From Streptomyces sp. LS1784 (lineage in GTDB: Bacteria > Actinomycetota > Actinomycetes > Streptomycetales > Streptomycetaceae), in NCBI RefSeq assembly GCF_020103755.1, contig NZ_JAHSQD010000002.1, positions 1 through 64,000 on the forward strand: a stretch of DNA of 64,000 nt, written 5' to 3'. Each line of letters begins with the position of its first letter. Position 1 is the first letter of the stretch. Both the position numbers and the translations under genes were made by a program. The notes below the pieces were generated by a model, which was not told where the DNA came from, did no database searches, and worked only from the letters and a program-made list of their open reading frames with translations. Positions 7,863 through 50,599 of this stretch are shown one piece after another.

Positions 7863-7954
7863 CCCCGCGCGCCGGCCTCCTGGCCCGATACCGGTTCACC
7901 GCCGGCTACCTGGCCGCCGCCGGCGTCGCGTTCGTCGCGACCTGGCCGCTCTGA
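7682..7954 (+). CDS. Possible second small membrane protein, start unclear
   Basis: Only the last 40 or so residues (ARYRFTAGYLAAAGVAFVAT) look like a real protein, resembling small one-span membrane proteins found next to holins in Streptomyces phages. The upstream part overlaps the preceding gene in another frame and has a low-quality composition. The only ATG in frame is at 7682, inside the previous gene. No better start codon is seen near 7860, so either a non-canonical start or ribosomal frameshifting from the previous gene would be needed. Confidence 0.3.
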   Translation: MERDHRVEVDPGPGPVPARSGGDRAGGVDAAGRPERDHHGPDPRGVARRAVKGRTAAARVAPRAGLLARYRFTAGYLAAAGVAFVATWPL

Positions 7955-7992
7955 GCGCCAAGCCCGCCCATCACCAGCACCAGGAGACGACC

Positions 7993-8301
7993 GTGAACAT
8001 CCTGAACGACACCGAGGCGTGGGGCCTGCTGCTCGGCGCCGTCACCCCCTGGGCGACCGCGCTCGTCCAGCAGCCGCACTGGACCAAGCCGGTGCGCGCC
8101 GTCGTCGGGGCCGTGGCCTCCGGCATCGTCGGCATCGTCACCGTCCTCGCCCGCGGGGACATCGCCCACGCGCAGACCGCCTTGACCACCGTCGCCCTTG
8201 CCGTTGTGGCCTCCAAGACGTTCTACGACGGCCTGTGGCAGCATGCCGGCGCCGGAGCGCTGGAGCGTGCGACCGCCCCGGACCGCCGGTCCGGTTGGTA
8301 G
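7993..8301 (+). CDS. Holin-like membrane protein
   Basis: The protein has 102 residues and a GTG start six bases after a CAGGAGACG ribosome binding site. It contains hydrophobic helices at about residues 10-28 (GLLLGAVTPWATALV), 35-52 (VVGAVASGIVGIVTVLA) and 63-80 (ALTTVALAVVAS), then a charged tail. This three-span pattern, small size and position at the end of the tail operon fit a phage holin. The endolysin gene lies 12.5 kb away rather than alongside, which is unusual and lowers certainty. Confidence 0.55.
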   Translation: MNILNDTEAWGLLLGAVTPWATALVQQPHWTKPVRAVVGAVASGIVGIVTVLARGDIAHAQTALTTVALAVVASKTFYDGLWQHAGAGALERATAPDRRSGW

Positions 8302-8331
8302 CCGGCCCTGTGTCTGCGGCCGGCGCTACCC

Positions 8332-8337
8332 TAGAGT
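8332..8337 (+). promoter_or_regulatory. Probable -10 element TAGAGT
   Basis: TAGAGT matches the Streptomyces TAGNNT -10 pattern. A start about seven bases downstream would place the 5' end exactly at the first base of the long stem described for 8343-8459. Confidence 0.4.
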
Positions 8338-8342
8338 GATGA

Positions 8343-8459
8343 TGTGGCCGCCGGGCCGACCGGCCGTGTGCTCTGGCAACAAGCCCTTCGGGGCTGTCTC
8401 CTATCAAGGGGAGCACGCGGACCCGGGCGGCTTCGCAACCCGCGGGCCCGGCGGCCACA
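8343..8459 (+). ncRNA. Candidate structured RNA closed by a 15-bp stem
   Basis: Bases 8343-8357 and 8445-8459 are perfect reverse complements (15 bp), enclosing 87 bases. Inside, GTGCTC pairs with GAGCAC, and within that AGCCC-TTCG-GGGCT forms a hairpin with a UUCG tetraloop. A third GC-rich hairpin follows before the closing strand. A -10 element ends six bases before the first stem base. There is no open reading frame of quality here and no U-tract after the closing stem. It could be a small RNA, or the 5' part of the leader for the RecT-like gene. It does not match a riboswitch or ribozyme I recognise. Confidence 0.5.
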
Positions 8460-8551
8460 CTTCCTAATCTCCCTGATCCGCAGCCGATTTGGCCACGTGG
8501 TGGGTGTTCCCACGCAGGCCGGGCTGACGTGAGTGTGGAGGCAGGCAGCCA

Positions 8552-8575
8552 CACCGGGGCCTGCGAACCCCGGTG
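8552..8575 (+). promoter_or_regulatory. Leader hairpin, copy A (variant loop CCTGCGAA)
   Basis: CACCGGGG at 8552-8559 pairs with CCCCGGTG at 8568-8575 around the loop CCTGCGAA. It lies just before the GGAAGG ribosome binding site of the RecT-like gene. The loop is close to the ACCGCGAA loop of the other copies. Confidence 0.5.
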
Positions 8576-8605
8576 CCGCCACGGAGACAAGGAAGGCACC
8601 CTGAG

Positions 8606-9841
8606 GTGACAGCAGCAGCTCAGCGAACACCCCCCGCGACCGAACCGGTCACCCCGCTGACGGACAACCGCGCGGAGATGACCATCGAGACGGCCGACCA
8701 GGTCCTGGAGATCACCGGCGAGCAGCGGTTCTGGACGAAGGCCCAGCGGGCCGCTCTCGCCGCCATCGGCCTCGCGCACGCCCCGACGCACGACCTCGTC
8801 GCGTTCTTCCACATCTGCAAGTCGACCGGCTTGGACCCCTTCCGCCGCGAGATCTACTACATCCAGCGCAAGCGCAAGGTGCAGGGCCAAGAGGAGCTGT
8901 ACTACACCGCGCAGACCGGCATCGACGGGTTCCGGCACATTGGGCAGCGCACCGGCCGGTTCATCCGCCGCGTCGGCCCGTTCTGGACCGGCCCCGAAGA
9001 CGACCCGACATGGTGGGTTCGGGGCGAGGACGGCATCAACCGCCGTCGCTGGGTTGACGTGTGGCTCCACGACCACCCGCCCGCCGCCGCGATGTGCCGC
9101 ATCGAACACCGCAGCATCGCCGGAGACGAGACGGTCACCCAAGCCGTCGCCCTCTTCTCCGAGTTCGCCGTCGGCAAGGACGAGTGGCAGGACGACCCGC
9201 GCACGGGCAGAGGAGTCAAAACCGGACGGCGCATCCTGACCGGCCTGTGGCCGACCATGGGCGCCCACATGATCGGCAAGGTGGCCGAAGCCCAGGCATG
9301 GCGCATCGCATTCCCCCGCGAGCTGGTGAACATCTACGAGCACACCGAGATGGAGCAAGCCGACGCTGCTCAGCGCGAACTGGAACGCGAGGCAGCAGCG
9401 GCGCGCCGACGCGAGGCCCGATCCCAGGAACAGCCCGGTGCCGTCATCCCCGGCACGGTGGTCAGCGCCTCCACCACCGAGACGGCCGACAGAGCCACCG
9501 GGCCAGGGGCGTCCGAGAGGGAGCCGGACGCGACCTCGGCGGAACCGGCTGACGAGCCCCCCACCGCAGATGAGCTGCGCGAGGAACTGCGCGCCTACGC
9601 CTCCGTGATGGGCAGCACCGTCGCCAAGATCACCTACCGATGGCGGAAGGCGACCGGGACCAGCCTCAACGAGGCAACCGGTGGGCAGCTCGCTGTTCTG
9701 CTCGCCGAGCTGCGCCCCTACGTTCTGTCCGCGCTGGGGTCCCACCCCGAGGCGGCCGAGCACGTCGAGGCAGGCGGCCTGCTGATCCGGCTCGACCCGG
9801 ACGCCACCGTGTGGAGCAGAGAGGACGCCCGCGAGGGCTAG
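8606..9841 (+). CDS. recT: RecT/Bet-family single-strand annealing protein
   Basis: This 411-residue protein contains the RecT/Bet signature FFHICKSTGLDPFRREIYYI followed by the beta segment with YYTAQTGIDGFRHIGQRTG, and a conserved GLWPTMGAHMIGKVAEAQAWR helix. RecT proteins anneal complementary single strands and work with a partner exonuclease in phage recombination. Residues after about 265 are a low-complexity linker and a small helical tail. I chose the GTG at 8606, downstream of GGAAGG. The PD-(D/E)XK nuclease gene follows after a terminator and is its probable partner. Two leader structures precede it, suggesting regulation at the RNA level. Confidence 0.85.
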   Translation: MTAAAQRTPPATEPVTPLTDNRAEMTIETADQVLEITGEQRFWTKAQRAALAAIGLAHAPTHDLVAFFHICKSTGLDPFRREIYYIQRKRKVQGQEELYYTAQTGIDGFRHIGQRTGRFIRRVGPFWTGPEDDPTWWVRGEDGINRRRWVDVWLHDHPPAAAMCRIEHRSIAGDETVTQAVALFSEFAVGKDEWQDDPRTGRGVKTGRRILTGLWPTMGAHMIGKVAEAQAWRIAFPRELVNIYEHTEMEQADAAQRELEREAAAARRREARSQEQPGAVIPGTVVSASTTETADRATGPGASEREPDATSAEPADEPPTADELREELRAYASVMGSTVAKITYRWRKATGTSLNEATGGQLAVLLAELRPYVLSALGSHPEAAEHVEAGGLLIRLDPDATVWSREDAREG

Positions 9842-9864: not shown

Positions 9865-9899
9865 CCGCAGGGCCGCGCCCCGGCGGCGCGGCCCTGCGG
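9865..9899 (+). terminator. Strong 15-bp hairpin after the RecT gene
   Basis: CCGCAGGGCCGCGCC at 9865-9879 pairs perfectly with 9885-9899 around a five-base loop. No U-tract follows, as is common in Streptomyces terminators. Confidence 0.6.
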
Positions 9900-11635: not shown

Positions 11636-12481
11636 ATGGCAGCCCCCCGCTACATCGACTACATGCCGCTGGACGCGATCCAGCCCGCCGCCCGAAACCC
11701 GAAAGGGCACGACGACGACGGGCTGGACCGCTCCGTCGAACAGTTCGACTTCACCGAGCCCGGCCTGCTGGACGAGCGCACCGACCGGCTGGTGGCCGGC
11801 CACGGCCGCTACGAGACCCTCGTCCGCCGCCGCGACGCGGGCAAGGCAGCCCCGGACGGCGTGGTCGTCACCGACGACGGCACATGGACCGTACCGGTCG
11901 TGCGCGGATGGGCATCCCGCGACGACGCCCACGCCGAGGCCTACCTGATCGCCTCCAACCACCTGACCACCGTCGGCGGCTGGGACGGCGAGGACCTGGC
12001 CGCGATGCTGTCCGACCTGGAGCAGGTCGACCCGGCGCTGTTTGTTGCCACCGGCTTCGACCACGCCCAGATCGACGCCATGCTCGCCGAGGTCACCCCG
12101 GGCGGCCCGGCCGACGACGCGAACGACGCGGACGACGACGGCGCCGACGAGCCCGAGCAGATCAACCGCGGCGACCTCCTGGCCCTGGCCGGCGTCACCG
12201 TCGGGGAGCCCGAGCACCAGGTCGAGACCGGGCAGGTGTGGGAGCTCGGTGACCACCGCCTCGTCGTCGCCGAGGTCTTCGACGGCTGGCCCACATGGAC
12301 CCCGCTGCTCATCGAGGGCAGCCTCTTCCTGCCCTACCCCACTCCGCTCGCCCCCTTCGCGGACCGCGCCGTCGGCCGACGCCTGGTGATGGTGCAGCCC
12401 GAGCGCTACCTGGCCGGTCACCTCCTGGACAAGTGGGCGCGCATCAGCGGGCAGGCGCCCACACTCCGGGACGAGTCGTGA
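11636..12481 (+). CDS. ParB-like protein fused to a remnant methyltransferase-like domain
   Basis: Residues 1-125 form a ParB N-terminal-like domain: DAIQPAARNPKGHD, then LVAGHGRYETLVRRR matching the GHGR motif, then AYLIASNHL. After an acidic linker (about residues 155-180), WELGDHRLVVAE resembles the entry to an adenine methyltransferase domain seen in ParB-methyltransferase fusions. The usual DPPY catalytic motif is absent, and the C-terminal 60 residues are a shortened domain (LVMVQPERYLAGHLLDKWA). It opens the deazaguanine operon, with a GTGA overlap to the first DpdA gene. It may direct or regulate the modification machinery, but this is inference. Confidence 0.7.
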   Translation: MAAPRYIDYMPLDAIQPAARNPKGHDDDGLDRSVEQFDFTEPGLLDERTDRLVAGHGRYETLVRRRDAGKAAPDGVVVTDDGTWTVPVVRGWASRDDAHAEAYLIASNHLTTVGGWDGEDLAAMLSDLEQVDPALFVATGFDHAQIDAMLAEVTPGGPADDANDADDDGADEPEQINRGDLLALAGVTVGEPEHQVETGQVWELGDHRLVVAEVFDGWPTWTPLLIEGSLFLPYPTPLAPFADRAVGRRLVMVQPERYLAGHLLDKWARISGQAPTLRDES

Positions 12482-13377
12482 CGACCGTCTTGCCGACCGC
12501 CGGAGGCACCTTCGACCAGGCGGAGCGGCCCATCTACTTCACCGCGGGCGGAGGCGAGTTCAACGCGGGCCCGCACGTGCTGACGGCCGTCAACGAGCTG
12601 ATGGGCGAAGCCGAGGAGCAGCGGCTGCGCGACCTGCTGGACGCCGGCTGCCGCGTCCTGCTGGACAGCGGCATCTTCTGGCTCACCAACCGGCACAGCC
12701 GGGCCCACGGCGTCTCCATGGACGAAGCGCTCGCGCTGCCGCCCGAGAGCATCGACGGGTTCGAGGAACTGCGCGAGCGGTACGTCTACCTGGCCCGCAC
12801 GTACGGCGACTGGCTGTGGGGCTACATCGAGCTGGACCAGGGCGGCCTGCTGCACAAGCGGGCGCAGCGGGCGGCCCTGCACGACCTCGGCCTGTCGCCG
12901 ATCCCCGTGTACCACCCGCTGGTGGACGGCTGGGACTACTTCGACGAGTTGGCCGGGCGGTACGACCGGATCTGCGTGGGCAACATCGTGCAAGCCTCCG
13001 GCCCGGTGCGGCTGCGACTGCTGCACACGATCTGGGAGCGCCGCCAGAAGTACCCGCATCTGTGGATTCACGCGCTCGGCCTGACCGCCAACGAGTGGTG
13101 CCTGCCGCTGGCCCCGGACTCCTGCGACTCCTCCTCCTGGCTGGCCCCGCTGCGCTGGAACCACCAGCGAATCGAGACCTCGATGCTGCGCCGTGTCGGC
13201 AACCTGCCCGCCGGCTTCCGCTACGCCCCTGGCGACAGCACCTCCTACCAGGCCGCCGCCCGGCTGTGCGCGGACGCCGCGACGGCTCTGGGCACCTGCT
13301 GGAGGCACGCCGCCCACCGCGTCCAGGAGCTGACCGGTGCCCCCGGCGGCACCGTTCTGGAAGGGGTGCAGCGATGA
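12478..13377 (+). CDS. dpdA: DpdA-like DNA guanine transglycosylase, paralogue 1
   Basis: The 299-residue protein is TGT-like. LLDSGIFW (Asp63) corresponds to the DSGG(F/Y) substrate-binding aspartate of tRNA-guanine transglycosylases. GYIELDQGG and HALGLT occupy the positions of later active-site segments. DpdA enzymes exchange guanine in DNA for a 7-deazaguanine base, in phages and in bacterial genomic islands. It is encoded with QueD, QueE and FolE, which make the base. The GTG start overlaps the previous stop. The next gene is a paralogue sharing more than half of its residues. Cysteines near the C-terminus are fewer than in the paralogue. Confidence 0.82.
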   Translation: MTTVLPTAGGTFDQAERPIYFTAGGGEFNAGPHVLTAVNELMGEAEEQRLRDLLDAGCRVLLDSGIFWLTNRHSRAHGVSMDEALALPPESIDGFEELRERYVYLARTYGDWLWGYIELDQGGLLHKRAQRAALHDLGLSPIPVYHPLVDGWDYFDELAGRYDRICVGNIVQASGPVRLRLLHTIWERRQKYPHLWIHALGLTANEWCLPLAPDSCDSSSWLAPLRWNHQRIETSMLRRVGNLPAGFRYAPGDSTSYQAAARLCADAATALGTCWRHAAHRVQELTGAPGGTVLEGVQR

Positions 13378-14312
13378 GCCCGAGCAGCCAGCCCGCCGCG
13401 GTGAAGCGCACCGGCGGTGGCGCGTTCGACCCGGCCGACCGGCACCTGTACTTTGCCGCCGGCGACTCCGAGCACTACCCGCACCACGTGCTGCTGGCCA
13501 CCAACGACCTGCTGACCGCCGGGCACGAACGCAGGCTCGTCGCCCTGCTGGACGCCGGGCACCGCGTCCTGCTGGACTCGGGGATCTTCTGGCTGACCAA
13601 CCAGTACAAGCGGGCCCACCCCGGCATCTCCATGGACGAGGCCCTGCGCCTCGCCCCCGAAGACATCGACGGCTTCGATGACCTGTACGCCCGGTACGTC
13701 GAACTGGTGCAGCGCCACGGCGACCGGTTGTGGGGCTACATCGAGCTCGACCAGGGCGGCCGGGACAACAAGATCCGCACCCGCGCCCGCCTCGAGGGCG
13801 AAGGCCTCGCGCCGATCCCCGTCTACCACCCGCTGGTGGACGGCTGGGACTACTTCGATGAGCTCGCCCAGCAGTACGACCGGATCTGCTTCGGCAACGT
13901 CGTCCAGGCGCCCGCGCCGGTGCGGCTGCGCCTGCTGCACACCCTGTGGGAACGCCACCGCCAGTACCCCGACCTGTGGGTGCACGTCCTCGGCCTGACG
14001 GTCAACGAATGGTGCCTGGCCGTCCCGCCGGACTCCTGCGACTCCTCCACCTGGCTCGGCCCGCTGCGCTGGCCCGACGTACGGATCGACTCCGCGCTGC
14101 TGCGCAAGGTCGGTGTGATCGACCGCGGCTTCGCGTACGACCTCGACCAGCCGGCCCACCCCACCCGCGGCCGTACCGCCTGCTGCCTGATGTGCGCGCA
14201 GACCGTCGATGCCACCACCAGCGTGTGGCGCCTCGCCCGCACCACCCGCGACGAGCTGCTCGGCCAGCCGTCCTACCCGCCCCTCACCGAACCGGAGGCA
14301 CGAACCTCGTGA
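13374..14312 (+). CDS. dpdA: DpdA-like DNA guanine transglycosylase, paralogue 2
   Basis: This 312-residue protein aligns along its length with paralogue 1, sharing VLLDSGIFWLTN, LWGYIELDQGG, IPVYHPLVDGWDYFDELA and CDSS-W-L-PLRW. The C-terminus differs: it has a CCLMC group followed by VWRLARTTRDEL, which may bind zinc as in canonical TGT enzymes. ATG at 13374 overlaps the preceding stop (ATGA). Two adjacent DpdA genes suggest either a heterodimer or two sequence or base specificities. The family assignment is firm; the division of labour is unknown. Confidence 0.82.
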   Translation: MSPSSQPAAVKRTGGGAFDPADRHLYFAAGDSEHYPHHVLLATNDLLTAGHERRLVALLDAGHRVLLDSGIFWLTNQYKRAHPGISMDEALRLAPEDIDGFDDLYARYVELVQRHGDRLWGYIELDQGGRDNKIRTRARLEGEGLAPIPVYHPLVDGWDYFDELAQQYDRICFGNVVQAPAPVRLRLLHTLWERHRQYPDLWVHVLGLTVNEWCLAVPPDSCDSSTWLGPLRWPDVRIDSALLRKVGVIDRGFAYDLDQPAHPTRGRTACCLMCAQTVDATTSVWRLARTTRDELLGQPSYPPLTEPEARTS

Positions 14313-14668
14313 AGTCAACTGTCAGCGTCTGGACCAAGGTCCAGCTGCCCGGATTCCACCACTGGCCCGGCGCGCCCGAGCACCGCTCCTACCTGCGGGC
14401 CCGGCACCGGCACCTGTTCCACATCACGGTCGGTGTCGCCGTCGCGCACGACGAACGCGACACCGAGTTCCACGACCTCGGCGACCTGATCCGCGGCTGG
14501 TGGGGCCCGGGCGCCCGCGAGTGCGGGGCGGCCTCGTGCGAAACCCTGGCCCGCACTCTCGCCGAGCACCTGAGCAGCGTTGGCCTGCGGGTGACGATGA
14601 GCGCGGTGTCCGAGGACGGCGAGGCCGGCGCGGTCGTGCACCTGGCCGAGACGGGGGAGCAGCAGTGA
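14309..14668 (+). CDS. Small T-fold-like protein in the deazaguanine operon
   Basis: The 119-residue product has an aromatic and His-rich core (PGFHHWPGAP, then RHRHLFHITVGVAV and EFHDLGDLI) that loosely resembles the tunnelling-fold proteins of pterin and deazaguanine metabolism. It lacks the QueD Cys/zinc arrangement, so it is probably not a second QueD. Its GTG start overlaps the DpdA2 stop and its end overlaps queD, so it is co-translated with the pathway. Function is not known. A role in base handling or in assembly of the modification complex would fit the context. Confidence 0.6.
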   Translation: MKSTVSVWTKVQLPGFHHWPGAPEHRSYLRARHRHLFHITVGVAVAHDERDTEFHDLGDLIRGWWGPGARECGAASCETLARTLAEHLSSVGLRVTMSAVSEDGEAGAVVHLAETGEQQ

Positions 14669-15141
14669 GCCGCCACAGTGTCACCGTCCGCCACAACTTC
14701 GAGACAGCGCACCGGCTGCCGCACCTCGCCGGGAAGTGCGAGAACCTGCACGGGCACTCCTGGGTGGTCGAGGTCACCGTGTCCGCTCCAGTGCTGGCGG
14801 CCGGCACCGTCGTGGAGTTCGGCGCGTTCAAGCGGGCTCTGCGGGAGTGGATCGACACCTTTCTCGACCACGGCACCATGCTCGGGGCCAGCGACCCGCT
14901 CGCCCCGGTCCTCGCCGGGCAGGGCAGCAAGCTGTTCCGCTTCGGTGCCGAGGATCCGACCGAGCAGGAGCAGCACGCCGCCGGTCTCGGCTGGCCGAGC
15001 GTGGAGGCCGTCGCTGAACTGCTCGGCCGCGTTGCCACGGAGGCCCTGCACACCCTGCCCCGCGCCGCGGGCGCGTACGTCTCCCACGTCGGCGTGTCCG
15101 AGACCGCCGTCAACGCCGCCTCCTGGACGGCGGCCCCGTGA
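14665..15141 (+). CDS. queD: 6-carboxy-5,6,7,8-tetrahydropterin synthase
   Basis: The 158-residue protein has the QueD zinc ligands HNFETAHRLP and ENLHGHSW, with the catalytic Cys in GKCENLHGH. It also has the DHG-TML segment and a SETAVNAASW C-terminal motif carrying the substrate-binding Glu. QueD converts dihydroneopterin triphosphate to 6-carboxytetrahydropterin, step two of 7-deazaguanine synthesis. GTG at 14665 overlaps the upstream stop (GTGA), with GGGGGAG eight bases before. Its end overlaps queE. Confidence 0.92.
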   Translation: MSRHSVTVRHNFETAHRLPHLAGKCENLHGHSWVVEVTVSAPVLAAGTVVEFGAFKRALREWIDTFLDHGTMLGASDPLAPVLAGQGSKLFRFGAEDPTEQEQHAAGLGWPSVEAVAELLGRVATEALHTLPRAAGAYVSHVGVSETAVNAASWTAAP

Positions 15142-15872
15142 GCGCCCTCGTCGTCCCCGACGCCGGCCTGCCCGTCGCCGAGATCTTCGGGCCCACCATC
15201 CAGGGAGAAGGGCCGACCGCCGGCCAGCGGGCCCTGTTCCTGCGCCTGGGCGGCTGCAACCTCAGCTGCGACTGGTGCGACACCCCGTACACCTGGGACG
15301 GCCAGCGGTACAACCTGCGCAAGGAGATCGGCCGCGTCCCGGTCGTCGAACTCGCCGAGTGGGCAGCCGAGCACCCGCACGCGATCGTCGTCATCACCGG
15401 TGGCGAGCCGCTGCTGCACCAGCGCACCGATGCCTGGCGCTCGCTGATGGCCGTGCTGCGCTACACCACCCGCCGCGTCGAGATCGAGACCAACGGCACC
15501 CTCGCGCCGCAGCACGTCAGCCTCGGCGTGCCGCGGCTGACCTTCAACGTCAGCGCCAAGCTGGCGAACTCCGGCATGCCGGAGGAGCGGCGGATCAAGC
15601 CGGACGCCCTGGAGGTCTTCGCCGGCCTCGCCCACCGCGGCCGCGCCCGCTTCAAGTTCGTCGCCGCCGGCCCGGATGACCTCGAGGAGATCGCCGACCT
15701 GGTCGAGCGCTTCCACCTTCCTCCGCACGCGACCTGGGTGATGCCCGAAGGGACCACCGCCGAGCGCACCATCGAGGTCGCCCGGGCCCTGGCCGACGAC
15801 GTGATCGCGCGCAACTGGAACCTGACGATGCGGCAGCACGTGCTGCTGTGGCCTGGAGAACGCAACCGATGA
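15138..15872 (+). CDS. queE: 7-carboxy-7-deazaguanine synthase (radical SAM)
   Basis: The 244-residue protein has EIFGPTIQGEGPTAGQ, typical of QueE, and the radical-SAM cluster CNLSCDWCDTPYTWDG (C-x3-C-x2-C). ITGGEPLLH binds S-adenosylmethionine, and EIETNGT is also present. It converts 6-carboxytetrahydropterin to 7-carboxy-7-deazaguanine (CDG). GTG at 15138 overlaps the queD stop, and the end overlaps folE (ATGA). The next enzyme of the standard pathway, QueC, is not encoded in this window. Confidence 0.93.
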   Translation: MSALVVPDAGLPVAEIFGPTIQGEGPTAGQRALFLRLGGCNLSCDWCDTPYTWDGQRYNLRKEIGRVPVVELAEWAAEHPHAIVVITGGEPLLHQRTDAWRSLMAVLRYTTRRVEIETNGTLAPQHVSLGVPRLTFNVSAKLANSGMPEERRIKPDALEVFAGLAHRGRARFKFVAAGPDDLEEIADLVERFHLPPHATWVMPEGTTAERTIEVARALADDVIARNWNLTMRQHVLLWPGERNR

Positions 15873-16462
15873 CCACCCCCGCCAACACCGCCGACCTGGT
15901 CCGCGCGGCCGAGCACGCCGCCGGTCTGCTCGCCGCCCTCGGCATCCCGTGCGACACCGAGTCCACCGCGGCCACCCCTCGCCGCATGGCCAAGGCCCTC
16001 GCAGAGCTGACCGCCGGCGTGTGCCTGGACCCGGCCCGGCACCTTGCCGTCACCTTCCCCCCGGAAGGAGAACGGGCAGGGCTGATCGCCGCCGTCGACG
16101 TGCCCTTCACCGCGCTCTGCGAGCACCACATGCTGCCGTTCACGGGCCGGGCCACCGTCGCCTACCTGCCGGCCCCCGGAGCCCGCATCGTCGGCCTGTC
16201 CAAGCTCGCCCGCCTCGTCCAGGAGTTCGCGGCCCGCCCGCAGGTCCAGGAACGGCTCGGCCAGCAGGTCGTAGATGCCCTCGGCGCGCACCTCGACATC
16301 CAGGGCGCGGCGTGCCTGATCCGCTCCCAGCACGCCTGCATGACGGCCCGCGGTGCCCGCGCGCACGGGGCCGCGATGGTCACCAGCCACCTGACCGGGG
16401 CCCTCCACGCCGCCCCGGCGCGGCGTGTCGAAGTGCTCGCGCTCGCGCCGCCACCAGCCTGA
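15869..16462 (+). CDS. folE: GTP cyclohydrolase I
   Basis: The 197-residue protein carries the FolE core: VPFTALCEHHMLPFTGRATVAYLP with the zinc Cys/His ligands, IVGLSKLARLVQEFA, and the late SQHACMTARGARA motif with the second zinc Cys. It performs the first step, GTP to dihydroneopterin triphosphate. A phage or island copy raises precursor flux for base modification. ATG at 15869 overlaps the queE stop, so folE is the last gene of the overlapping operon. Confidence 0.93.
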   Translation: MTTPANTADLVRAAEHAAGLLAALGIPCDTESTAATPRRMAKALAELTAGVCLDPARHLAVTFPPEGERAGLIAAVDVPFTALCEHHMLPFTGRATVAYLPAPGARIVGLSKLARLVQEFAARPQVQERLGQQVVDALGAHLDIQGAACLIRSQHACMTARGARAHGAAMVTSHLTGALHAAPARRVEVLALAPPPA

Positions 16463-17032: not shown

Positions 17033-17053
17033 CTCGAAGGCCCGACAGGCCAA

Positions 17054-17085
17054 CTGGGCACCTAGTAACGTTACTAGGTGCCCAG
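17054..17085. repeat. Perfect 32-bp palindrome
   Basis: Bases 17054-17069 (beginning CTGGGCACCTAGTAAC) are the exact reverse complement of 17070-17085, with no spacer. The centre is AACGTT. It could act as a factor-independent terminator for the gene ending at 17032, or as a protein-binding site. Confidence 0.8.
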
Positions 17086-17107
17086 CTCGGCGTTGAGGCC
17101 TGCTTCT

Positions 17108-17129
17108 CAGCGCCTCGCGTGAGGCGCTG
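17108..17129. repeat. Inverted repeat with 9-bp arms, four-base loop
   Basis: CAGCGCCTC at 17108-17116 pairs with GAGGCGCTG at 17121-17129 around GCGT. It is the second member of a three-palindrome cluster in a gene-free stretch. Confidence 0.7.
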
Positions 17130-17170
17130 GCTGCCTGCTGGTCTGGTAGGCGGCCAGCGCCCTTGAAGAG

Positions 17171-42130: not shown

Positions 42131-42224
42131 GTAGGTCCCGCGCCCGTCGGCGAAGGCGCGGCGCGAGTCCAACGGCCCACCCCAGTAGGAAACTTGGTGT
42201 GCCCAGCCGGTGGGCGGTTGGAGA

Positions 42225-42269
42225 GGTTGGGGGTGGTGGGGCTGCCAATGAGCCCCACCACCCCCAACC
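42225..42269 (+). repeat. Perfect inverted repeat with 18-bp arms
   Basis: Bases 42225-42242 (GGTTGGGGGTGGTGGGGC) are the exact reverse complement of 42252-42269 around TGCCAATGA. It lies 39 bases before the next ATG. A smaller hairpin, GCAGGG-ACCGAC-CCCTGC at 42274-42291, follows and faintly resembles the leader hairpin family. Confidence 0.7.
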
Positions 42270-42307
42270 CGTCGCAGGGACCGACCCCTGCTTGACCGAA
42301 GGCCGCC

Positions 42308-42874
42308 ATGCCGACACTGCCGCCGAAACCTGCCACCGCCGAGATTGTTACGGCCGCCCGCGACCGGCACCGCCGAGCCGCCGCCGACACCAACCTCGGC
42401 CCCACCGCACGCCGCTACCACCAGCACGCCGCCTGCGGCTACGACTGGGCACTCCAAGCCCACGGCACCCCGACGGCCGCCCGCCACCTCGGCTACGCCC
42501 ACGCCTACGCCGAGCAGGCCGCCAACCACGCGCCCGCCACCAGCAGGTGGACGCTCATCCTGCCCGGCCCGTTCTGCGACTGGCTGACCGAAAACGGGCA
42601 TCTGCCCGACGACTTCACCGGCGACGAGCCCACCGACCGGGTGCTGCTCGCCTACCGCGCCGGCGTCCCGCACCGCATCGACGCCTCCAGCTGGAGCCTG
42701 ACGATCCCAGCCCACGACCCCGTGGCGATGCACGAGCTCACCCAGATCGCGCTGCGCTTCGCTCAGCACTGCTCGCACGACAACCCCCACACGCCCGCCC
42801 AGGCCCGCGCCGCAGTCGCGCTCACCGACCGGATCGCAGACCTCTCCAAGCGCATGCTGCACGCCACCAACTGA
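42308..42874 (+). CDS. Unknown helical protein
   Basis: The 188-residue product is mostly helical: PATAEIVTAARDRHRRAAAD at the start, ARHLGYAHAYAEQAANH, and QARAAVALTDRIADLSKRML at the end. The centre has a WTLILPGPFCDWLTENG segment. A weak GAAGGCCGCC ribosome binding site precedes the ATG, below two hairpins. No family is recognised. It is probably transcribed with the small gene that follows. Confidence 0.6.
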   Translation: MPTLPPKPATAEIVTAARDRHRRAAADTNLGPTARRYHQHAACGYDWALQAHGTPTAARHLGYAHAYAEQAANHAPATSRWTLILPGPFCDWLTENGHLPDDFTGDEPTDRVLLAYRAGVPHRIDASSWSLTIPAHDPVAMHELTQIALRFAQHCSHDNPHTPAQARAAVALTDRIADLSKRMLHATN

Positions 42875-45452: not shown

Positions 45453-45821
45453 TCAGACACGAAGGGCTCGCAGCACGAATGCGACTTCGTCCCGCCATCC
45501 GAGGAGCTCGCCGACCGTCGGGGGCAACGCGAACTGCTGGTAGTGGCAGGCCCCGCTGAGGTTGCGCCAGACCGCCGCAAGCCGGCCGGCCAACCGGACG
45601 TCGAGGTGGTGGGCGAGCCATACAACCTTGGTTTCCGTCCGGCAGCGGCCGAGGGCCGGCCGGTGGGCGGAGATGTAGGCGTCGAGTCCCGCTTCCAGGG
45701 CACGGCGGAGCAGGAACACCGCGGCGCGCGGGTGGGCGGTTCCGGAGGATCCGGCATCGAGAAGCGATGCGGCGGCGGTCATGCGGTCCGCTGAGGCCAG
45801 CACATCGGCTGTAGCAGTCAC
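45453..45821 (-). CDS. HEPN-like protein coupled to the Rad50-like ATPase
   Basis: The 122-residue helical product has ARMTAA-type helices, PRAAVFLLRRALEAGLDAYI and then RNLSGACH at residues 86-93, an R-N-x5-H arrangement matching the R-x4-6-H motif of HEPN RNases and toxins. GTG at 45821 overlaps the ATPase stop (GTGA), so the two are translated together. In defence systems, HEPN proteins often serve as RNA-cleaving effectors released by a sensor. The length and motif fit; no experiment or search supports it here. Confidence 0.5.
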   Translation of the reverse strand: MTATADVLASADRMTAAASLLDAGSSGTAHPRAAVFLLRRALEAGLDAYISAHRPALGRCRTETKVVWLAHHLDVRLAGRLAAVWRNLSGACHYQQFALPPTVGELLGWRDEVAFVLRALRV

Positions 45822-48247
45822 AGGGATCGCAGTCCTTCCGTGGCAGTGGCCACCCGGTTGATGAACGCCATGGCGTCGTCCGTGTCCGGGATGGTGGCGT
45901 GGGCACCCTTGTTGCACAGTCCGACGACGCTGCTTGCATCGGGACCGATCCGGCGGCTGATCTCCCGGTACACATCGGCCTTGCTACGGGGCTCCCCGAA
46001 CAGGGCCAGGGCGGCCAGATTGGTCAGCTCACTGGCCCTGCCGATGCGCTCCTCGATGGCGAGATGCCCCATGCCGGTGCCGAGGAGGGTGCGGCGGGCC
46101 GACTCCTGGAGGGCGGCCTCCAGAGCGAGGCGGCACTGGCCGGGCAGGACCTCACCGAGGATCGCAGCAGTAACTTTGTTGTCCCGGGCGACCGCACGAG
46201 CGGCGGCCAGCTCACGCTTGACCGGGTCGTCGACGGAACGGACGGTCACCTTCGAACGTCGGAACCGGCCGACCTCGAGGATCGTGGCCTTGATCCGGTG
46301 GAAGCGCAGGGCGTCCGGCAGCCGGGTGTCATGGGAGAAGACCACGACCTGGTGGGTCCGGGCGATCTCTTCCAGCAGCCGGGCGAGGCCCTCGACCTTC
46401 CGAGGGTCCATGGACTGCACCGGATCGTCGATGACGACGAAGCCGAACGGGCTCTGCGGGGCCATGGCCCGGGGCAGGAACAGGGCCAGCGCGAGGGAGA
46501 ACAGTTCGCCCTGGCTCACGACACCCAGCGCGGAGGCGTCGACGTCGTCCACGGTGACGTTCAGTGCCACGCCCCGGCCGCTGTACGTCTCGGAGCCCTT
46601 GAGCATGACGTCACCGAGGGCGACGTTGCTCTCCTGGCTGAGGTACTGCCAGATGCTCTGCGCAGTTTCGGCGATGGAGCGCATACGGGCTTCACGCAGC
46701 TCGGCCTGCACCTCCTTGAGCCATGCCCTCGCCTTCTTGACCTGGGCCAGCAGCGGCTTGGCGGCGGCTGCCTCATCGGCCAGCGCGAGCCACGATGCGA
46801 GCTGCGGGACTACGCCGCGCCACTGCTCGTCCTGCTCCGCCAGCCGATGCTTCGCCTCCTGGCGGACATGCCGGCAGGCGTCGGCGAGTGCCGCCGCCTG
46901 CTTCTCGGCGCGAGCCGCGAGCTCGTGCGGGTCGCGAATGCCGCGGCAGGCGACCCATTCGTCCCAGAGGACGTGCAGGTGATCGGGCAGGTCAGTCGCG
47001 CGGCTATGGATCAGTGCCCGCAGGTCGTCCGTGGAGTCCCGCACGGCCTGCTGCGCGCACCGGGCCTCGGCGGCCTCCTCGCGGAGCAGGTCGGCCTGGG
47101 CGGCTGCCGCGGCGGCCCACGCATCGTCGAGGCGGTCCGCACTCCGGCAGACCGGGCAGGTGTGGTCCGCGGGGTGCTGGGAGCGCAGCCGCAGGGCCCA
47201 GTCGAGGAGGTCGGCGCGGGCGAGCGCGGTGCCGGCGTCACTGTGCCGGACGTCCTCGGCCGCTGCGACGGCCTCCCGCAGTCGGGCGACGGCTTCGGTC
47301 ACCGCGTCGGTGTCCGGGCCGCTGAGCGCGGCCAGCCGGTGCAGCCGGGCCAGCTCCGTCGTGTCAGCGAGCGGCGCCCCCGCGATCAGGGCGCGGATGC
47401 GCTCGCGGTCCGGGAATCGCTGCCGGAGCGCCGTCACCGCATCGTGGACGCGCTCGTCCGGAACGTCCGCGAGGGCCGCCACCAGGGGCGGCAGCGCGGT
47501 CTTGGCCTGCTTCTCGCTCAGCGTCAGCTGCTGTTCGCGTGCGGCGAGCCGATCGGCGGCTTCGCTGAGCGTCTCGAGGCCCAGAAGCGTGGCGAGCCGG
47601 TCGTACATCCGGCTGGGCTTGGCGCTCATCATCTGGCCGAGCTCACTGTAGGAGAGGATCGGCCGGAACGACCGCAGGTCCTCCGCCCAGCCGAGAGCTG
47701 CGAGCGGCAGCGGGGTCGGCCCGAGCCCGAGGACCGCCGACTCGGACTCGGAGAACGACGTGGTGTCGGCCCAGGTACGGGTGATCGTGAGTGGTCGGAC
47801 CCGGCCGGACGCGAGGAGTTCCAGCTCGAGACGGTGCGGTCCGGAGTGGTGCAGGTTACGCCAGCCGTCCTGCTGGGCGGTCTGCACGTTCTTGCCGTCC
47901 TCGTCCTCCCAACGGCGATTGCGCCCGGTGAGGGCGACCTCAATTCCCTCGGCGAAGCTGGACTTGCCGCTGCCGTTCCTCCCCTGCACCACCGTCAGGC
48001 CCGGGCCCGGCGGGATGTGGAGCGTGGCGGCTTCCCCGATGCCGCGGAAGCCTTCGACGGTGATCGACTTCAGGTAGGCGCCACGGACGGCGGCGGCCTC
48101 GGAACCTTCGACACCGTCCAGAGCTTCGCGAACCAGTGCGTCGACCTCCTCGGACAGCGGAGCGGACTCCAGCCGCTGGACGACGGCCGCGATCGGCGAT
48201 GCCGGCAGTGCGGGTGCGGTGGGTGCGGGGCTGGTGCTGGTCGTCAT
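45818..48247 (-). CDS. Rad50/RloC-like zinc-hook ATPase
   Basis: The 809-residue protein has a Walker A (GRNGSGKS, residues 89-96), a coiled coil interrupted by a CPVC zinc hook (364-367), a second coiled coil, a VSQGE signature-like segment (577-581) and Walker B in VVIDDPVQSMD (604-614). This is the layout of SMC/Rad50 ATPases, and of RloC anticodon nucleases associated with type I restriction loci. A C-terminal helical region (ALAALFGEP-like, ending LCNKGAHATI) follows the ATPase head and could be a HEPN-like or partner-binding domain. ATG 48247 follows CCAGGAGCGCGCT. Confidence 0.75.
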   Translation of the reverse strand: MTTSTSPAPTAPALPASPIAAVVQRLESAPLSEEVDALVREALDGVEGSEAAAVRGAYLKSITVEGFRGIGEAATLHIPPGPGLTVVQGRNGSGKSSFAEGIEVALTGRNRRWEDEDGKNVQTAQQDGWRNLHHSGPHRLELELLASGRVRPLTITRTWADTTSFSESESAVLGLGPTPLPLAALGWAEDLRSFRPILSYSELGQMMSAKPSRMYDRLATLLGLETLSEAADRLAAREQQLTLSEKQAKTALPPLVAALADVPDERVHDAVTALRQRFPDRERIRALIAGAPLADTTELARLHRLAALSGPDTDAVTEAVARLREAVAAAEDVRHSDAGTALARADLLDWALRLRSQHPADHTCPVCRSADRLDDAWAAAAAAQADLLREEAAEARCAQQAVRDSTDDLRALIHSRATDLPDHLHVLWDEWVACRGIRDPHELAARAEKQAAALADACRHVRQEAKHRLAEQDEQWRGVVPQLASWLALADEAAAAKPLLAQVKKARAWLKEVQAELREARMRSIAETAQSIWQYLSQESNVALGDVMLKGSETYSGRGVALNVTVDDVDASALGVVSQGELFSLALALFLPRAMAPQSPFGFVVIDDPVQSMDPRKVEGLARLLEEIARTHQVVVFSHDTRLPDALRFHRIKATILEVGRFRRSKVTVRSVDDPVKRELAAARAVARDNKVTAAILGEVLPGQCRLALEAALQESARRTLLGTGMGHLAIEERIGRASELTNLAALALFGEPRSKADVYREISRRIGPDASSVVGLCNKGAHATIPDTDDAMAFINRVATATEGLRSL

Positions 48248-48320
48248 AGCGCGCTCCTGGAGAAGAGGAGGTGGGGACGATGACACGGCTGCCGTGGCGA
48301 CGACGGCAGCACGAGCTGTG

Positions 48321-48360
48321 CAAGCAGATCTAGATAAGCAGATCTCTGAAAGCATTGTCA
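48321..48360 (-). promoter_or_regulatory. Minus-strand promoter overlapped by AAGCAGATCT direct repeats
   Basis: On the minus strand TTGACA (48355-48360) is followed after 18 bases by TTATCT (48331-48336). AAGCAGATCT at 48321-48330 recurs at 48335-48344 and covers the -10 element. The HTH-methyltransferase encoded divergently is a candidate repressor. Confidence 0.6.
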
Positions 48361-48427
48361 ATCGAATGTATACCTTGACGGGTGGTGTAGAGTGTTTACC
48401 GTCCACTTCCGAGAGGGGCGGGGCTCC

Positions 48428-50599
48428 ATGCCGCAAAAGTCAGTGACGCCGCCGTCCGCACAGGTGACGGCCGCAGAGATCTCCCGTATCGCCGGGGTCA
48501 CCCGCGCCACCGTCAGCAACTGGCGGCGGCGCCATGCCGACTTCCCCGCGCCCAGTGGCGGCACCGAGAGCAGCCCGCTCTACGACCTGGGCGCCGTACA
48601 GCAGTGGCTCCGAAGCCGGGGACACACCTCTGCCGCGTCACCCGAGGAGGATCTGCGGACGACGCTGCGGCTTCTCGGGGCGGGCGTGGACGCCGCCCGC
48701 TTCTTCCCACTGTTGGCAGGTGCGGCGCGGCTTCCGGAGCAGGAATCGGGCCAGCTTCTTGAACTGCCCGACGACCGGCTCGCCACAGCTGCCAACAATT
48801 TCCTGGCCGCCCGGACGACATCCGAGACCCGGTCCGTGAAGTACGAGACCGAAGACGCCGGTGTGATCCGCGCGCTCCTGGCGTGTGTACGCGGTCCGGG
48901 TGCGCAGGCCGCGCTGGACGTCCTCGCCGAACGCGACCTCGACGAGAGCGCGGCCAGCGGCACCTACCGCACTCCCCGGGGCCTTGCCGACCTCATGGCA
49001 GGACTGCTGCCCGACACCGTGACCCGCGTGCTCGACCCCGCCTGCGGCAGCGGCACGCTCCTCGCCGCCGCCCGCAGGCGCGGCGCACGTGAGCTGTACG
49101 GACAGGACATCCGTGCGCTTCAAGCGCAGCGGGCCTCAGTGGCCCTTCAACTTGACGAGCCCGCCTCGGCTGCGGGGGCGGAGGAGGTCGTGATCGCCGC
49201 CGGTGACAGCCTGCGGGCCGACGCCTTTCCGGGCCTGACGGTCGATGCCGTGCTGTGCAACCCGCCCTTCGGCGACCGCGACTGGGGCCACGACGAACTC
49301 GCCTACGACCCCAGATGGGCCTACGGCGTGCCCTCACGCTTCGAGTCGGAGCTGGCGTGGGTCCAGCACGCACTGGCACATGTCGAGCCCGGTGGGTACG
49401 TCGTCATGTTGCTGCCGCCCGCCCTCGCCTTCCGCACCTCCGCCCGCCGCATCCGAGCCGAACTCGTCCGCAGCAGGGCCGTGCGCGCCGTCGTCTCCCT
49501 GCCCGCCCGCGTCGCCTACCCGCTGCACATCGCCCTGCACATCTGGATACTGCAGCGGCCCGACCCCGGCGCCGCCGAGCGCACCTCCGTACTCTTCATC
49601 GATGGAGACGGCGAGGGCAGTGTCGGCACTGTCACAAGGAGCGGCTCACCGGGGAGTGCCGCCTTCGACTGGGCCGGCCTCGCGGAGCGCGTGCTGACAC
49701 CATGGAAGGCGTATCGAGACCAGCCCGACGGTTTTACCGACGAGTCGGGGCTGGCCCGCGCCGTCCCGGTGGTCGACCTTCTCGACGATGTCGTGGACCT
49801 CACCCCGGGCCGGCAGGTCCGCACGGCCGCGGCCGATGTCGACCCGGCGGCGCTCGTTGGCAGGATCACCGCGCTGCATGGCCAACTGGGATCGCAACTG
49901 GACGAACTGACCACGCTCAGCGGAGCGGCGAAATGGGAGACGGCCAGTACGTCGATGCGTGAATGGCGTACCGCAACTGTCGCCGACCTCACCCGCGGAG
50001 GCGCCCTCGCGGTTGTCCGGTCGGTGGCGCTTGGCAGCGGACGCGACTCCAAGAGCGGAGGCGTCGTCACTGAGGGAACCGGGTGCCAGCCGGTGCTGAC
50101 GGCACATGATGTCTTGGCCGGCAGCGCGCCCTCGGGCGCGACCGGGGATGCCCATCCGGACATCAGCCAAACGGTCGCGGAGGGAGACGTATTGCTGCGC
50201 GCAGTCTCCAGCCCAAGCTCTACGGGACTGATGACCCGGGTCGCGGACGAGAGCGATGCCGGCGCGCTCCTCGGCTCCGCCCTGCACCTCCTCCGTCCGG
50301 ACCCGGCCCGCCTCGACCCGTGGTTCCTCGCCGGATTCCTCGGCGCAGCCGACAACATCACCGCCGCCTCGACCGGCACCACCATGGTCCAGGTCAACCC
50401 GGCGCGGTTGCGCGTCCCCCTCATGCCGCTGGCGGAGCAACGCCACTACGGCGACGCCTTCCGCCGCGCCTACCAGCTGCGCGTCGCCGCCCATCGCGCC
50501 GCGGCGTTGGCCACGGAGGCCGCGAACGCGGTGACCGCGGGACTCACCGTAGGCGCGCTCCTGCCGCCGATGTCCGGCGACCAGCACCAATCCGGCTGA
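48428..50599 (+). CDS. HTH - N6-adenine methyltransferase - specificity-domain fusion
   Basis: The 723-residue protein begins with a helix-turn-helix (AEISRIAGVTRATVSNWRRR). Residues about 170-450 form a type I-like adenine methyltransferase with LDPACGSG (202-209) and CNPPFGDRDW (277-286). Residues about 535-720 resemble half of a type I specificity subunit. No nuclease domain is present. ATG 48428 follows GAGAGGGGCGGGGCTCC. It heads a plus-strand set that continues with complete HsdM, HsdS and HsdR, so the island carries two adenine methyltransferases. It may modify its own target or regulate the divergent ATPase operon through its HTH. Confidence 0.75.
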   Translation: MPQKSVTPPSAQVTAAEISRIAGVTRATVSNWRRRHADFPAPSGGTESSPLYDLGAVQQWLRSRGHTSAASPEEDLRTTLRLLGAGVDAARFFPLLAGAARLPEQESGQLLELPDDRLATAANNFLAARTTSETRSVKYETEDAGVIRALLACVRGPGAQAALDVLAERDLDESAASGTYRTPRGLADLMAGLLPDTVTRVLDPACGSGTLLAAARRRGARELYGQDIRALQAQRASVALQLDEPASAAGAEEVVIAAGDSLRADAFPGLTVDAVLCNPPFGDRDWGHDELAYDPRWAYGVPSRFESELAWVQHALAHVEPGGYVVMLLPPALAFRTSARRIRAELVRSRAVRAVVSLPARVAYPLHIALHIWILQRPDPGAAERTSVLFIDGDGEGSVGTVTRSGSPGSAAFDWAGLAERVLTPWKAYRDQPDGFTDESGLARAVPVVDLLDDVVDLTPGRQVRTAAADVDPAALVGRITALHGQLGSQLDELTTLSGAAKWETASTSMREWRTATVADLTRGGALAVVRSVALGSGRDSKSGGVVTEGTGCQPVLTAHDVLAGSAPSGATGDAHPDISQTVAEGDVLLRAVSSPSSTGLMTRVADESDAGALLGSALHLLRPDPARLDPWFLAGFLGAADNITAASTGTTMVQVNPARLRVPLMPLAEQRHYGDAFRRAYQLRVAAHRAAALATEAANAVTAGLTVGALLPPMSGDQHQSG

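Follow-up and report, generated by a model that had tools for sequence, protein, structure and literature searches.

The window, by which I mean the whole stretch of 64,000 nucleotides analysed, belongs to a contig of 79,316 bases (C407) in a 9.56-Mb genome, and its left part is a prophage. There one finds tape measure and tail genes, a gene for a small protein of 102 amino acids (7993-8301), recT, an exonuclease gene, and a gene cassette described below, with the terminase small subunit and an endolysin further downstream. By identity, the relatives of the contig are Kitasatospora humi, Streptomyces sp. FH025, and Streptomyces sp. CB01881, and the genus is called Kitasatospora. The recT gene, encoding a single-strand annealing protein, occupies 8606..9841 of the plus strand, starts with GTG, and matches PHROG 2780 (E 4.8e-38) and Pfam RecT (E 1e-13). 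The earlier note placed a holin gene upstream. An open reading frame is indeed there, the one of 102 amino acids, but neither PHROGs nor Pfam gives it a significant match. Between its end at 8301 and the GTG of recT at 8606 lies a gap of 304 bp, which holds the leader considered here. Far to the right, on the minus strand, 45818-48436 encodes a large ATPase of the SMC/RecF/AbiEii type, possibly a defence gene.

The cassette (11636-16462) comprises a ParB-like protein, two tandem DpdA-like transglycosylases (58% identical), QueD, QueE, and FolE, and these genes make it a phage cassette for 7-deazaguanine DNA modification. QueC was not recognised in any of the scanned proteins, and without it, I presume, the product of the cassette may be the 7-carboxy form. 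The order recT-exo-ParB-DpdA-QueD-QueE-FolE is kept in five of the six relatives fetched. The exception is K. humi, whose copy (L054 1505-14483) carries an island of about 13 kb, with DndA/SspA-, DndB-, DndD/PbeC-, and MzaB-like genes, between recT-exo and ParB-DpdA. The K. humi prophage holds two DNA-modification systems side by side. At 17046-17169 there are two or more long near-perfect inverted repeats, in place of which the relatives have different, equally strong repeats; they likely mark the end of the transcription unit.

The features of the leader all lie on the plus strand. Its 5' domain, 117 nt long (8343..8459), is closed by a stem, P1, of 15 bp (8343-8357/8445-8459) that is 100% complementary and encloses 87 nt, exactly as the earlier note described it. 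Inside are P2 (8360-8374/8410-8426), inner hairpins, one of them capped by the UUCG tetraloop also recorded there (8387-8390, closed by CCC/GGG as cUUCGg, 8384-8393), and another hairpin at 8427-8443. The predicted fold has an energy of -77.9 kcal/mol, against a mean of -57.95 (sd 3.89) for dinucleotide shuffles (z -5.13), and none of 200 shuffles was as low. An equal or lower GC-adjusted energy was reached by 5 of the 3195 overlapping 117-nt segments of the window. The window has three sites with a perfect stem of 15 bp or more around a loop of 3-150, and such stems are present in 4 of 100 shuffles of it. All six distinct elements known (see below) fold in this sense, with z from -3.6 to -6.6 and none of 200 shuffles as low in any case. 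The 117-nt element is thus among the strongest structures of the window. The top GC-adjusted fold is at 42161-42314, with a perfect 19-bp stem, between converging open reading frames. The element had been called noncoding, and no reading frame is kept among relatives. A protein-coding leader was considered, using an ATG frame from 8342 that gives similar peptides in some relatives, and was rejected: one relative reads ATG-TGA, and 1-nt indels within the element shift others.

Adjoining the 3' end of P1 is an anti-Shine-Dalgarno stretch, CUUCCU..UCUCC (8460..8472), which complements GGAGA..AGGAAG in the ribosome-binding site of recT; its predicted partner is 8583-8596. Then come a middle hairpin, GUGGG-UGUU-CCCAC (8500..8513), and a nearly invariant 3' block (8541..8580), which contains GCAGGC (8541-8546), CACCGGGG (8552-8559), GCCUGC (8559-8564), CCCCGGUG (8568-8575), and GGUGCC (8572-8577). 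The Shine-Dalgarno of recT, AGGAAGG, lies at 8590..8596, and AGGAAGGC is kept in all six leaders.

Where does this RNA begin and end? A hairpin (8297..8330; GGTAGC..GCTACC) lies at the end of the upstream gene and probably stops transcription coming from upstream. Its pairs, as predicted from the alignment, show changes on one or both sides, and 0.52 of its 33 columns are invariant. Next comes a -10-like hexamer, TAGAGT (8332..8337), with 6 of 6 columns invariant in the six distinct leaders. From this hexamer the earlier note set the 5' end on the first stem base. The hexamer is present and invariant, but the promoter scan turned up no -35-like partner for it, and the transcription start (~8344) is therefore inferred. 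A second copy of the promoter was considered and discarded, since the pattern was found once, as chance expects. At the other end, a scan of 7900-8700, of a kind that does not cover the T-less terminators of actinobacteria, found no T-run terminator, which agrees with the view that the element is not a simple terminator. The same view had it as a discrete RNA. Its structure does exceed chance, but its discreteness is not supported: conservation runs on to the recT Shine-Dalgarno and there is nothing like a 3' end at 8459, so the element is better taken for the first, 5' module of a leader on the recT mRNA. The conserved unit, as the alignment delimits it, is a leader of ~262 nt (about 8344-8605) up to the recT start.

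Of 70 genomes of the genus, 7 carry the leader, counting that of the window, in six distinct sequences. A DNA search gives nine loci, the window among them, and the two leaders on viral contigs are identical to the copies in genomes G019 and G031. Distinct copies that are not sisters are 77-93% identical, with up to 96% in the closest pair. A structured cis-regulatory leader should keep a fixed place before one gene family, and all six distinct leaders precede the same recT, whose product is by alignment 65-86% identical to the window's. Against two spacers in which 20 of 52 columns are invariant stand the element with 87 of 120 (Fisher p 2.8e-5), its inner core with loops included (8370..8414; 37 of 45, p 1.1e-5), the middle hairpin region (8494-8512; 15 of 20, p 0.0055), and the block at 8541-8580 (39 of 40, p 5e-10), p values that are descriptive because spacers and regions were picked by eye after viewing the alignment. 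In the neighbouring genes the invariant share is 0.68 (upstream gene) and 0.65 (recT, 8666-9300), which puts the element roughly level with coding sequence and the 3' block above it.

Covariation adds evidence that is suggestive, not strong. In the six-sequence alignment 97.7% of 262 cells are paired, a level reached by 7 of 500 shuffles, and the covariation score was matched by 25 of 500. The sole doubly changed pair goes from G-C to U-A, and 478 of 500 shuffles have as many pairs changed on both sides; G-U exchanges come in addition. If a single bulged base is tolerated, K. humi also replaces U-A by A-U close to the end of P1, a change read by eye and uncounted. Loss of the paired arms without compensation, named beforehand as grounds for abandoning the element, is mainly not seen; single sequences do break some pairs, for instance in the CB01881 copy, where a G of P1 has become A.

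The leader is narrowly distributed. DNA searches (E up to 1e-6 or 1e-8) find it in 4 of 150 genomes of a family sample and, in a class sample of 394 genomes, in its own genome alone. In another search, at E 0.001, 17 of 150 relatives match, 7 of them over the full length; the other 10, like a second place in G019, match over just 25-50 bases and are left out of the leader count. A covariance model of the element, R1, has matches in 8 of 394 genomes of the family, namely the seven already known and G292 (34 bits, E 0.0086), the last treated as chance. Phages and plasmids gave no DNA match to the leader. Window-type RecT was found, at E 1e-20, in 0 phages and 1 plasmid, and R1 has no match in the RecT-bearing stretch of that plasmid, nor in a mycobacterial prophage stretch. 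A core-pattern search of viral contigs returned two contigs, both already in the set, and a shorter pattern returned four further ones that proved to be unrelated phage hairpins. Aligning RecT to genome contigs gave three loci, all likewise in the set. Among 4227 Rfam families none matches the window at its gathering cut-off. The best sub-threshold match in 8280-8640, NiCo-AnGGAG, scored 17.9 bits against 64.5 needed, and this and the others there were rejected as chance.

Then there is the matter of how the leader could act on recT. In the predicted fold of the full leader, the Shine-Dalgarno pairs with the 8460-8472 stretch in all six relatives, with a probability of at least 0.83 at the core bases. 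Set against shuffles of the spacer, the energy of this duplex gives p 0.030, 0.157, 0.020, 0.012, 0.021, and 0.749 in the six leaders, the last of which does no better than its shuffles, and the summed energy lies below all 1000 sets with shuffled spacers, a comparison that treats related sequences as independent. The 3' block has three predicted states: a hairpin (8552-8575), the same hairpin with a pseudoknot formed by GCAGG/CCUGC, and a third in which GCAGGC and GCCUGC make a helix and GGUGCC pairs with GGCAC(C) beside the Shine-Dalgarno. In fragments starting 75 bases before the loop of the 3' block, the alternative helices are favoured over the hairpin in five of six cases; in the full leader, by predicted energies, the hairpin is favoured in five of six. 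A pairing of the 5' strand of P1 with GGCAGCCACA of the 3' block was also considered and dropped, since in K. humi a U of P1 is replaced by A while the block stays the same, which breaks it.

Other results temper this picture. Occlusion of the Shine-Dalgarno is not exceptional in this GC-rich phage: recT comes 13th of 25 prophage starts, ordered from most to least occluded, in a ranking whose start sites come from a mechanical choice of open reading frames and may in some cases be wrong. The stretch 8486-8608 is no more stable than its shuffles (z 0.26). The predicted pairing of the Shine-Dalgarno is unchanged when the 117-nt domain is removed, so any link between that domain and the switch is putative.

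I propose that the region is a selected, structured RNA leader, a reading to which I would give about three chances in four, and that it probably represents a new family of RNA, though one whose kind of control element is already known. As to mechanism, translational control of recT leads, because the stretch after the stem is predicted to pair with the Shine-Dalgarno of recT in every one of the six leaders, and I hold it tentatively, at a little short of even odds. Transcription would start at the first stem base (~8344) and the compact 5' domain would fold first. The 8460-8472 stretch would then pair with the Shine-Dalgarno of recT and keep translation low, until the block at 8541-8580 swaps partner, or a protein or ligand holds it, opening the ribosome-binding site or keeping it closed. 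The likeliest job of such a device would be timing or feedback control of RecT translation.

An alternative view looks to the genes further on. The gap between recT and the exonuclease gene contains a terminator-like hairpin (9865..9899, plus strand) of 15 bp without a T-run (z -4.71), and the same gap carries hairpins in all six relatives, partly different in sequence (z -2.39 to -6.82). It looks like a terminator or a processing site inside the unit, and since such a hairpin follows recT in every relative, the genes behind recT may need read-through. This is the best argument for supposing an RNA-based antitermination or anti-pausing like that of HK022 put, in which the nascent 5' domain, lying as it does directly behind the inferred start, would bind the polymerase and let it pass the terminators of the operon. 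I think this improbable though worth keeping in mind: the 5' domain occurs once in the window, against two copies of put in HK022, the hairpin behind recT could as well serve processing or stability, and the near-invariant block beside the Shine-Dalgarno is left unexplained. It is a somewhat longer shot that the two ideas combine, the 5' domain acting on the polymerase or sensing a signal while coupled to a bistable or pseudoknotted block that opens the ribosome-binding site of recT; this would make it an RNA device of actinobacterial phages with two modules. If that were true, recombination, and perhaps the DNA-modification genes behind it, would be timed by RNA without a dedicated repressor. 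That the stems are there simply to be cut by RNase III, or to protect the mRNA, with no sensing at all, has its precedent in the leaders of phage lambda and would suit the stems of 15 bp, or nearly so, that stand in the leader and behind recT. It would not explain why the core loops and the 3' block are invariant, and I rate it very low. Hardly better are the odds for a small RNA that works independently in trans, either set free from the leader or ending at 8459. The domain is compact and closed exactly by its own ends, but no terminator follows 8459, conservation continues into recT, and the element is confined to the recT locus. The hairpins might also act as DNA, in a replication origin or operator, for they adjoin replication or recombination genes and the reverse strand of the element is stable too (z -4.25). 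Such an element is about equally unlikely: there are no repeated iteron-like units, the 3' block occurs once in the window, and one-sided changes in helices lean, on the strand of the leader, towards G-U over A-C (7 vs 4 pairs), which is suggestive only.

The least credible reading is the one that the neighbourhood invites, a riboswitch that responds to a preQ0-like 7-deazaguanine produced by the operon. Genes of this kind modify phage DNA, according to PMC6884629, in which riboswitches have 0 mentions. In favour of the idea is the downstream series of two DpdA-like transglycosylases, QueD, QueE, and FolE, in order in five of six relatives. It is too much to expect, in the face of what happens when cassette and leader are parted. 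Seven viral contigs have the ParB-DpdA-Que cassette without the window-type recT and without the leader, and in K. humi the 13-kb island separates the cassette from a leader that is intact. By these comparisons the leader tracks recT, not the 7-deazaguanine genes. Covariance models of preQ1 riboswitches, moreover, match neither the window nor the leader region.

Translational control of recT, the reading preferred here, would give a handle on when annealing-type recombination turns on in such phages, and the leader would be a candidate part for recombineering in Streptomyces and its relatives. The model is easily tested, since the modules are defined, the predicted pairings are clear, and six variants occur naturally. 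To our knowledge, few structured leaders of actinobacterial phages have been described. A literature search found no structured leader of such prophages, absence from that search not being absence from print.

Three known systems offer a comparison. Translational leader switches share with the recT leader a structured 5' domain, an anti-Shine-Dalgarno, and, next to the ribosome-binding site, a conserved block that can pair in alternative ways; they differ in having a ligand or protein, whereas the recT leader has no Rfam match and stands solely before one prophage recT. The preQ1 riboswitches are similar in heading an operon with queD, queE, and folE and in the possibility of a pseudoknot beside the ribosome-binding site, but the leader has no match to them in Rfam and follows recT instead of the que genes. 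The putRNA of HK022, too, is structured and comes immediately after a phage promoter, a putative one in the case of the recT leader, with early-type genes and a terminator-like hairpin further on. According to PMC9378689, putL is just downstream of its own promoter and putRNA is about 70 nt with two stem-loops, whereas the leader domain is 117 nt with one long closing stem of 15 bp. The copies of put stand behind two early promoters, while R1 finds a single place in the window (the minus-strand match being the same place), a count for a contig that starts at the window edge, where part of the prophage may be missing. Finally, putRNA binds the zinc-binding domain of beta' and suppresses termination.
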